A stretch of 64,000 nucleotides of DNA from Methanoregulaceae archaeon (GTDB lineage: Bacteria > Armatimonadota > Fimbriimonadia > Fimbriimonadales > Fimbriimonadaceae). The position numbers and the translations under genes were made by a program. The notes below the pieces were generated by a model. It made no database searches, was not told where the DNA came from, and saw only the letters and a program-made list of their open reading frames with translations. Where the stretch lies: contig JADZEW010000021.1 of the NCBI GenBank assembly GCA_020850325.1, forward strand, positions 62,001 through 126,000. The letters run 5' to 3'. This document shows positions 3,904 through 45,766 of this stretch, piece after piece (position 1 is the first letter of the stretch; every line of letters begins with the position of its first letter).

Positions 3904-3937
3904 AGAGAGCCCCGAAACTCGATTTCGGGGCTCTTGC
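3904..3937 (-). terminator. Rho-independent terminator of the TPR gene
   Basis: Read on the minus strand, AAGAGCCCCGAAA and TTTCGGGGCTCTT form a 13-bp stem with a 5-base loop, followed by a run of eight T. This is a textbook terminator directly after the stop of the TPR gene. Confidence 0.92.
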
Positions 3938-3953
3938 TAGGCTCGAACTGGGC

Positions 3954-43691: not shown

Positions 43692-43715
43692 CGGTCTCGG
43701 GTGCTCGCTCTCTGA

Positions 43716-43757
43716 AGATGCCCGCGGGTCCTGGTCCCGCGGGCATCTTTGTTCTTC
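43716..43757 (+). terminator. Rho-independent terminator of the respiratory cluster
   Basis: AGATGCCCGCGGG and CCCGCGGGCATCT form a perfect 13-bp stem with a 7-base loop, followed by a T-rich tail (TTGTTCTT). It lies 24 bases after coxD and closes the 14.7-kb gene cluster. Confidence 0.9.
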
Positions 43758-43783
43758 CGCTGGCAACTCGGGTTGGCTCGGCT

Positions 43784-43829
43784 CCCCCTCGCCTCGCTTG
43801 CGGGGAGAGGGGCTGGGGGTGAGGGGACA
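43784..43829. repeat. GC-rich inverted repeat unit
   Basis: A C-rich arm (CCCCTCGCCTCGC) faces G-rich sequence (GGGGAGAGGGGCTGGGGGTGAGGGG). It is one of several palindromic units in the 700-base gap after coxD and looks like a dispersed intergenic repeat. Confidence 0.45.
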
Positions 43830-43845
43830 TCGCCGGAATCGACAT

Positions 43846-43904
43846 GGGAGGGCGGCGCTCCGTCGCCGCCGAATCTAGAGGCTCCGACAAAGCGGAGCCC
43901 TCCC
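43846..43904. repeat. 59-base three-stem palindromic element
   Basis: The outer arms GGGAGGGC/GCCCTCCC enclose two inner hairpins: GGCGGCG with CGCCGCC, and GGCTCCG with CGGAGCC. The whole could fold like a small cloverleaf on either strand. It has no coding potential. Confidence 0.6.
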
Positions 43905-44006
43905 GCGTCGGGACGAGCCCACCGACGTCCTCAGGGCAGTTCAAAGGCCTCACCCAATCACGAGGCGCGAGGGTGGTTCGTACCTCGAATGACGGGCGGC
44001 ACGCCA

Positions 44007-44039
44007 CCCTTCCCGCCACAGTCGCACTGTGGCGGGCCA
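44007..44039 (+). repeat. Left copy of a 33-bp inverted repeat
   Basis: This 33-base sequence, itself almost a hairpin (CCCGCCACAGT...ACTGTGGCGGG), is the exact reverse complement of 44333-44365. The two copies bracket 293 bases without a convincing gene, so the pair resembles terminal inverted repeats of a small non-autonomous element or two opposed repeat units. Confidence 0.85.
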
Positions 44040-44332
44040 CTCCTGCGGCAATCATACATCTTCTGGTCTTTGAAGTCAAGGTCCCATGCGGCACCTGGCC
44101 GGTGACATACCGCCTCATGCGCGCCGCCTGAAGGCATCGATCAGCAAGTCAATGCGGGTTCCGTCTCAATCCCGTTCGGGCTGGACGCTGTGAACGCGAG
44201 ATCGACTACGCATGGAGTTCGGCTTGGCGGTACGAGGCGGGCCATTGGAATGAAGATACTCATGCCGCGGATGAGTGTCTAGTTTCTGCCCGGGTCGGTG
44301 TATGCTGAGATCGTGGAGAGTGCTGTCCATTT

Positions 44333-44365
44333 TGGCCCGCCACAGTGCGACTGTGGCGGGAAGGG
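44333..44365 (-). repeat. Right copy of a 33-bp inverted repeat
   Basis: The exact reverse complement of 44007-44039. It ends 22 bases before the start of the broken prepilin gene. No target-site duplication is evident at the outer edges. Confidence 0.85.
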
Positions 44366-44387
44366 AGACGGAGTCGACCGTGAACCC

Positions 44388-44968
44388 ATGAGCACAAGTT
44401 CGACAGAGCTGCGCGCCTTTACCCTTATGGAAACGATGGTCGTGGTGGCCATCGTTTCCATACTTGCGGCAATTCTAGTCCCCGCGGCGATGAGGGCGTG
44501 AGCCTGTTTATCAATGGATCCGGTCAAATCGGTCCGTTGCCTACGGATTCAGAGTCGCCAAGGCTGCTTCGCGAGAGCCTTCAAGCCTATGTGCGGAACG
44601 ACGATGTGTGGTTTTGCCCCGTCGATCCGGTGAAGCGCCAGGACCGATACTATCTCGGATTGAGGCACAAGTACACGAGCTACCTGTACACGCCGCCCTT
44701 CTATCCGAACATCTTGGAGCATGTTCGCACGAATGGCACATTGCCCCCGATTCGGCCCCTGAATCTCATGCCGTCTTGGATGGCCCTGCTTGCGGAGCCG
44801 AACTCTTCGGGAGGTGAGGTTGATAACGAGGAGTCACTCCGATGGAGTGGCAATAAGCATCGTGGGTATCACAAGAGCGGTCGCCAGTACATTCTCTTCT
44901 CCGACCTCAGTGTCAGGGCGTTCTCAGTGGACCGAAGGTTCAAGGTTGGCGAGTTCGTTGATGAATGA
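44388..44968 (+). pseudogene. Broken prepilin-like gene
   Basis: The first frame (44388-44501) encodes a prepilin leader (LRAFTLMETMVVVAIVSILAAILVPAAMRA) and then stops. An overlapping second frame (44498-44968) continues with the body of such a protein, ending with YILFSDLSVRAFSVDRRF, which resembles the FADGH-type end. The stretch found in intact relatives just after the helix (Cys, SN.RQLG, MY..D.D) is missing, so an internal deletion shifted the frame. Recoding through the GTGA overlap is conceivable but unlikely. It lies beside the 33-bp inverted repeats. Confidence 0.65.
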
Positions 44969-44977
44969 CCGCAGAGA

Positions 44978-45766
44978 TCAGCTTTGCTGTTCCTGCTGCA
45001 ACTCGTCAGGCATCGGCGGCGGCATGACCGAGATCGTGGTCGGGAACTGCCGGAAGTCGAGTTCCTCCAGCGCCTGGTCGATCGCCAGAAGCTGCAGCTT
45101 CGCCTCACTCATCGCCTCCAGAAACTCCTGGCTCGACATCTCGGGCGACCGCGCGGCCATGCGATGGCCGATCAGCTGCATGCGAAGGCTGTCCAGGGTG
45201 GTCATGAACACCGCGCACTGGGCCTCGGCCCGCTGCACCCCCGCCATCACCCCGGCGTATCGCTGACGATACTCGGCGATGTTCTTGTCCGCGATCCGGT
45301 ACAGCTCGGTCAGTTGAGGATCGTTGCCTTGCGGGGTCCACGTTGGCGGTTGGTGGAGTATGCCTTTCTCGGTCTCCAGCACCTCGACGGTGATGATATC
45401 GGCCCGGCGTAGCGCCGCGTAGAGCGAATGCGACACCGCGCGGATCGTCTTCGGCATCTCCTGCAGGTCGGCAATCTGGTCCTTGCGGAGCCGCGTCAGC
45501 ACCTCCTCGAATCGCGACAGCCGGTCGCGGACCGAGTTCCAGAGCGCCTCGAAGCGCCGGTGGGTGAAACGCGCCCGTACACTGCGATGCCAGGCGGCGT
45601 TGACGTGGAACACGATTGGCAGCAGCCCCATGGCCATCCAGAGCCCACCGAGGCCCGATAGCGCCCAGCCGACGAAGACAGCCAAGAGAGCAGTGCCGAC
45701 CACTCGCCCTGGGCGGAGGAGTTCGCGGATGAAGAGCCGCCGATCCTGTTCGCGAATATCCTGCAC
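44978..45766 (-). CDS. Membrane protein with a long helical domain, downstream of gatA
   Basis: A 262-residue protein. Two closely spaced hydrophobic segments (about 20-55, RVVGTALLAVFVGWALSGLGGLWMA being split by a Gly-rich turn) form a membrane hairpin. The remaining 200 residues are helical and charged, probably a cytosolic coiled coil, ending in a Gln-rich tail. No family is recognised. The GTG start is preceded by GAGGAG. It lies 21 bases after gatA on the same strand, so it is probably cotranscribed. Confidence 0.72.
   Translation of the reverse strand: MQDIREQDRRLFIRELLRPGRVVGTALLAVFVGWALSGLGGLWMAMGLLPIVFHVNAAWHRSVRARFTHRRFEALWNSVRDRLSRFEEVLTRLRKDQIADLQEMPKTIRAVSHSLYAALRRADIITVEVLETEKGILHQPPTWTPQGNDPQLTELYRIADKNIAEYRQRYAGVMAGVQRAEAQCAVFMTTLDSLRMQLIGHRMAARSPEMSSQEFLEAMSEAKLQLLAIDQALEELDFRQFPTTISVMPPPMPDELQQEQQS

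Follow-up and report, generated by a model that had tools for sequence, protein, structure and literature searches.

A probable non-autonomous, internally deleted RAYT element between REP-like palindromes in a Fimbriimonadaceae genome

The source genome comprises 3.52 Mb in 41 contigs, and the window analyzed here is a 64,000-nucleotide stretch of it (C21:62001-126000). Within the window, a 359-bp element (44007-44365) is bounded by two arms of 33 nt each, 44007-44039 and 44333-44365, which are exact reverse complements separated by a spacer of 293 nt; when 38 nt are compared, complementarity between the arms is 95%. Within each arm, the inner 25 nt corresponds to CCCGCCACAGT-3 nt-ACTGTGGCGGG, forming a perfect 11-bp stem with a 3-nt loop. 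Therefore, the perfect 33-bp inverted repeat and the near self-complementarity of its arms, which had been proposed in a sequence-only reading of the window, were both borne out. As in that reading, no target duplication was seen in the flanks of the 359-bp element; known IS200/IS605 members are reported not to make larger target duplications (PMC2817692). The features of the locus are as follows; C8 designates the contig that carries the full-length element described below.

43994-44009, minus strand: left outer hairpin (hairpin 2), 16 nt, overlapping the 33-mer by GGG; 6 pairs folded, net score 7
44007-44039, minus strand: left terminal REP-like palindrome (hairpin 1; 33-mer) with foot GTGG; exact reverse complement of 44333-44365, with the same 33-mer at the C8 RAYT ends
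44031-44116, plus strand: RAYT left end and codons 1-17; 92% identity to the C8 copy
44051-44079, minus strand: outward sigma-70-like promoter site TTGACT-17-TATGAT, also in the RAYT left end; 10 of 12 consensus matches
44117-44158, plus strand: block of RAYT codons 99-112; 78% identity to the C8 copy
44159-44260, plus strand: RAYT codons 166-200, C-terminal part; 84% identity in DNA and 79% in amino acids over residues 166-199
44333-44365, plus strand: right terminal REP-like palindrome (hairpin 1; 33-mer) with foot TTGG; pairs with the left arm and matches the C8 RAYT ends
44363-44379, plus strand: position of the right outer hairpin 2, with no convincing hairpin in the window copy; net score 3, below the shuffle mean of 3.38
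44387-44968, plus strand: broken prepilin-like gene, a neighbor outside the element and directly to its right; N-terminal methylation motif and remainder in different frames

To the left of the element, a near-perfect 17-bp inverted repeat follows the cytochrome oxidase gene (43715-43749) and precedes a T-rich stretch. It looks like a terminator, though the scan of 43700-45000 called no terminator-like sites. Two dispersed repeats of about 45 and 150 bp were also seen in this flank (43782-43992). Sequences next to the element on contig C31 match them with 96% and 91% identity, and parts of the two repeats occur in many places in the related genome G001.

We searched for the 25-mer core of the arms, setting the three loop bases to S and allowing up to three mismatches, and no site was found in the window beyond the two arms. 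The same 25-mer gave 0 matches in 100 dinucleotide shuffles of the window, which excludes a chance palindrome. A coding palindrome held in frame was excluded as well, because the length of the outer hairpin varies by one base among copies. When the window was scanned with Rfam at gathering scores, two tRNAs were identified and no match was obtained at the 359-bp element.

The core was present in two of the 61 genomes searched, the source genome included, with nine places in the source genome (up to three mismatches) and 11 places in G001, a congener of the source genome (Fimbriimonadaceae, Armatimonadota). A scan of named genomes returned one relative, the Fimbriimonadaceae MAG contig JANJUB010000162.1. 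The full 33-mer was not confined to the window: on contig C8 of the source genome, two facing 33-mers with 0 mismatches relative to those of the window enclose a RAYT ORF of 208 aa (L009 1597-2223, minus strand). Hence, the RAYT with matching ends that the sequence-only reading had suggested looking for does exist elsewhere in the genome, and further facing pairs are dispersed over other loci of the source genome and G001.

The C8 protein matched NCBIfam NF047646 (REP-associated tyrosine transposase) with 80.9 bits, passing the cutoff of 80 by 0.9 bits only, and Pfam PF01797 with 38.6 bits (cutoff 23); a PDB sequence search with it resulted in 0 matches at 0.001. The HxH histidines H93 and H95 and the putative catalytic tyrosine Y165 were invariant in all 16 aligned RAYTs. 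When the C8 protein was compared with the source genome, three matches were obtained, namely C8 itself, a RAYT on contig C15 (55% identity), and window positions 44159-44260 on the plus strand. On either side of the C15 RAYT (L026 about 1048-1890) lie related palindromes that are longer and have CCCACCACAGTT stems, as would be expected had the ends diverged along with the transposase.

The window unit aligns to RAYT codons 1-17, 99-112, and 166 to the end, and beyond 44260 the alignment to C8 runs on at about 74-75% identity through the end of the ORF to the right palindrome. H93, H95, and Y165 all lie outside the retained blocks. As two internal deletions removed these three residues, the window unit is incapable of making such a transposase; the ends of the autonomous element were kept and the transposase was lost, as expected of a non-autonomous derivative. 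The 293-bp interior is itself a leftover of RAYT sequence. The sequence-only reading had reported no convincing gene between the arms; it was right in that no intact gene is present, and it overlooked the transposase remnant at 44159-44260 (RAYT residues 166-199). In places, the window interior is nearer to two copies in G001 (C89 and C16) than to C8, so the C8 element is to be regarded as a sister of the parent and not as the proven parent.

The RAYT of G001 (C2) is 95% identical to C8 and has the same ends, the right one with one mismatch. In the two gutted copies of this genome, C89 and C16, both deletion junctions are identical to those of the window unit, and the pairwise identities among the three gutted copies are 85.0, 84.1, and 81.7%. 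The left flanks of C89 and C16 do not match each other, and those of C16 and the window have dispersed-repeat stretches of 40 bp and 22 bp in common; these comparisons rest on left flanks, as the C16 contig stops 49 bases past the palindrome. The C89 copy lies 0.87 kb and the window unit 0.6 kb from the corresponding gene, in the same orientation and with different intervening DNA, and the two may represent one old insertion. Given this possible common insertion and the unlike left flanks of C89 and C16, the gutted form is found at two or more loci, and thus constitutes a small family. We also checked the cytochrome oxidase region of G001 for an empty site. Its similarity to the window extends to about 43854 and then stops inside another repeat, and no 33-mer was found in this region at up to 10 mismatches. 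Because the break falls in another repeat, before the element, the locus does not represent a clean empty site.

In the wider survey, some RAYT match was found in 34 of the 61 genomes (source included). We picked 23 RAYT loci from the matches and fetched stretches, representing fewer than 23 genomes, and at 21 of them the flanks contained inverted repeats whose score exceeded the best of 30 shuffles by 5 or more; of the remaining two, L034 had none and L108 was marginal. G011, which belongs to another genus of the same family, contains a gutted RAYT of about 400 bp between palindromes like those of its own full RAYT, and the two blocks of this copy are 75-77% identical to the full one. Thirteen C-terminal RAYT remnants were examined in other genomes, and this copy alone was flanked by cognate palindromes left and right. 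In G018, the remnant has a palindrome pair unlike that of the G018 RAYT locus. The two remnants of G050 are 98% identical over 293 bp (L095 1-292, L096 672-964), lie at contig ends, and have a hairpin on one side only; perhaps they are another repeated gutted form, or a single place seen twice. No such palindrome pair was found at the remaining nine remnants.

Many copies contain a second hairpin outside the 33-mer, which starts from its last GGG and whose arms differ among copies. The mean net pairing score of hairpin 2 over 33 sites was 5.15, against 4.46 (sd 0.18) when the right parts were re-dealt among copies, with 5.15 reached in 0 of 2000 such trials, and against 3.38 in shuffles. Nine of the 33 sites scored 3 or less, including all six RAYT-type right ends (window, C8, C2, C89, C16, and C31); either the outer hairpin is dispensable at some ends or it has decayed there. 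In a model-fitted alignment of both hairpins, which leans to structure and in which many sites are orthologues or copies, 26 compensatory-change cells were counted versus 12.2 in shuffles. The unfitted alignment had 20 compensatory cells versus 10.9 in shuffles, its score was above shuffles too, and 67% of the helix 2 cells were paired; the count of pairs altered on each side was no higher than in shuffles, at 7 versus 6.1 (177 of 500). We regard this covariation, read from aligned copies, as support for the hairpins, not as proof.

With the double-hairpin covariance model (E<=1e-4), at least 15 sites were found in the source genome and at least 20 in G001, mostly those used to build the model, from 150 candidates scored per genome; the G001 sites on C74 and C194, each at a contig end, may be the same place. 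At the foot of hairpin 1, GTGG was read in four of the five RAYT-type left ends (C8, C2, window, and C89, not C16), and TTGG, CTGG, or CTGA in the right ends of these five units. The canonical REP head is described as GT(A/G)G (PMC2817692).

We consider it likely that the window unit is a non-autonomous, internally deleted RAYT element for which the full C8 element supplies, or supplied, the transposase. In a RAYT element, two inverted REP-like palindromes enclose an IS200/IS605-like Y1 transposase gene; according to this explanation, two internal deletions took the catalytic core while sparing both palindromic ends. The C8 element would give, or would once have given, a transposase that recognizes the end hairpins as single-stranded DNA and moves the short unit in trans, and such movement via single-stranded hairpins would leave the target unduplicated. 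The sequence-only reading had compared the unit to a MITE, or to a pair of opposed REP-like units mobilized by a transposase elsewhere. The C8 RAYT with identical ends and the gutted relatives support that comparison; we infer, from sequence comparison, that the C8 RAYT may be active and may be the mover of the window unit. A DDE-type MITE was excluded by the hairpin ends, the HUH source, and the target duplication not being seen. Several points count against the explanation: the window copy has no clean empty site, it may be one old insertion with the C89 copy, the C16 contig stops too soon for its right flank to be compared, the GT(A/G)G foot is confined to left ends, the NF047646 cutoff is passed narrowly, C-terminal remnants elsewhere are seldom so bounded (1 of 13 with cognate palindromes), and RAYTs are reported to be single copy and unable to move themselves (PMC3116915).

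Among known systems, TIRtrons (TIRYT; PMC3733652) appear to be the closest match. They share a RAYT-like gene and long, partly self-complementary inverted repeats, some of them double palindromic and also dispersed. They differ in that the host here belongs to Armatimonadota, and deleted derivatives with common junctions, as seen here, were not met in the part of the TIRtron description considered. The RAYT/REPtron arrangement (PMC2817692) likewise has two inverted palindromic repeats enclosing a Y1 transposase gene, and the window unit shares such ends; however, the GT(A/G)G foot is here at the left end only, the unit is gutted, and REPs are described as usually numbering more than 100, versus at least 15 and at least 20 sites per genome here. 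REPINs (PMC3116915) resemble the unit in having two inverted REPs and in being non-autonomous and thought to depend on a RAYT from elsewhere. They are characterized by high copy number and a short spacer, whereas here the core occurs at nine and 11 places and the 293-bp spacer is a RAYT remnant. Bacterial MITEs (PMC3116915, PMC3733652) are also short, non-coding, bounded by terminal inverted repeats, and descended from an element that resides in their own genome, but the unit differs from them in its Y1/HUH source, its hairpin-folding ends, and the target duplication not being seen.

PMC3116915 describes the route by which RAYT elements give rise to REP and REPIN populations as unknown. In the literature searched, as judged by titles and abstract openings, no description of gutted RAYT copies or REP-bounded genes in Armatimonadota was found. 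The full RAYT, the gutted derivatives with fixed junctions, and single ends occur together in the two sister genomes, and a separate gutted RAYT is present in a genome from a different genus; this coexistence makes the step from transposon to non-autonomous unit readable and testable.

At other loci, single genes lie between such ends, with hairpin 2 facing the gene, and these loci raise the possibility, which we consider rather unlikely, that the hairpin ends delimit exchangeable modules (a RAYT, its gutted form, or a single gene), with cleavage or recombination at hairpin 1 accounting for the gain and loss of the modules. On contig C1 of the source genome (L136 301-772), a lipoprotein-like gene of 127 aa lies between two double-hairpin ends. 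The G001 counterpart on C7 (L137 about 3921-3945) has one shortened hairpin and no gene, with flanks 80% and 90% identical, and would represent a near-empty site for the C1 gene. Conversely, at the G001 counterpart of C26 (C133/C190) there is an additional gene, of 313 aa, together with a second pair of palindromes; the join of C133 and C190 crosses contig ends through 82 identical overlapping bases within a repeat, which weakens this case. At C31/C33 and C35/C83, the genes of the site differ between the source genome and G001, and the neighbors are conserved (peptidase-like 97.9%, CTP synthase-like 100%, amidohydrolase-like 97.5%, C35 neighbor 90%; these names, like RHS-like, were assigned by eye).

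Each of the three enclosed proteins searched in 41 genomes occurred in just one of the two congeners, which favors the exchange of modules: the C1 protein in the source genome and marginally in G023, the C31 protein in the source genome only, and the C133 protein in G001, with a weak match in G016. In addition, only one of ten proteins from the enclosed-gene regions had a Pfam match (DUF4265), and nine genes of these regions had a GC content of 47-58% versus 61% for the window. However, since REPs mostly lie in intergenic DNA, any gene with a REP on either side is bounded anyway; the source genome has, on C30, a broken paralogue of the C1 gene without such ends; and the loci are few and were chosen after the fact, with no control rate of gene turnover. 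The enclosed genes fit exchange at hairpins and also fit ordinary accessory-gene turnover between intergenic repeats.

A broader form of this explanation seems improbable to us. It would make RAYT-linked double hairpins the exchange boundaries, in this Fimbriimonadaceae genus, for modules of a single gene (RHS fragments as well as small lipoprotein-like or orphan genes with a lower GC content), as integron-like variable sites served by an HUH transposase, with the window unit as a gutted promoter-bearing module. If true, the gain and loss of genes at fixed sites would be linked to an HUH transposase as well. Separately, we observed that RHS-like fragments start or stop at palindromes (L009 2193-3801, L131 near 3433, L132 near 1983 and 2627), as if RHS modules had been cut there.

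It is unlikely that the unit is a dead remnant, that is, a RAYT that decayed in place before the genus split, with relatives arising by recombination or duplication and with the ends of the deleted form never used. The age of the copies (82-85% identical) agrees with such decay, as do the single site that the window and C89 copies may occupy and the RHS-like fragments adjoining the C8 and C89 copies. Against it, C89 and C16 have identical junctions and unrelated left flanks within one genome, and no difference has arisen between the two 33-mers of the window copy or between them and the C8 ends.

It is very improbable that the palindromes owe their retention to a role as RNA or terminator hairpins of neighboring genes, unrelated to mobility: the covariation of the outer hairpin favors such a role, and the outward promoter-like site would yield transcripts starting with the hairpin, but the scan of 43700-45000 is against it, the same ends flank a transposase gene, and the 25-mer core is restricted to two of 61 genomes. 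The promoter-like site was not seen in the shorter C31 unit. By consensus match alone, and as one observation given that the ends are related by descent, TTGAC(A/T)-17-TATGAT pointing outward was present in all five RAYT-type left ends scored.
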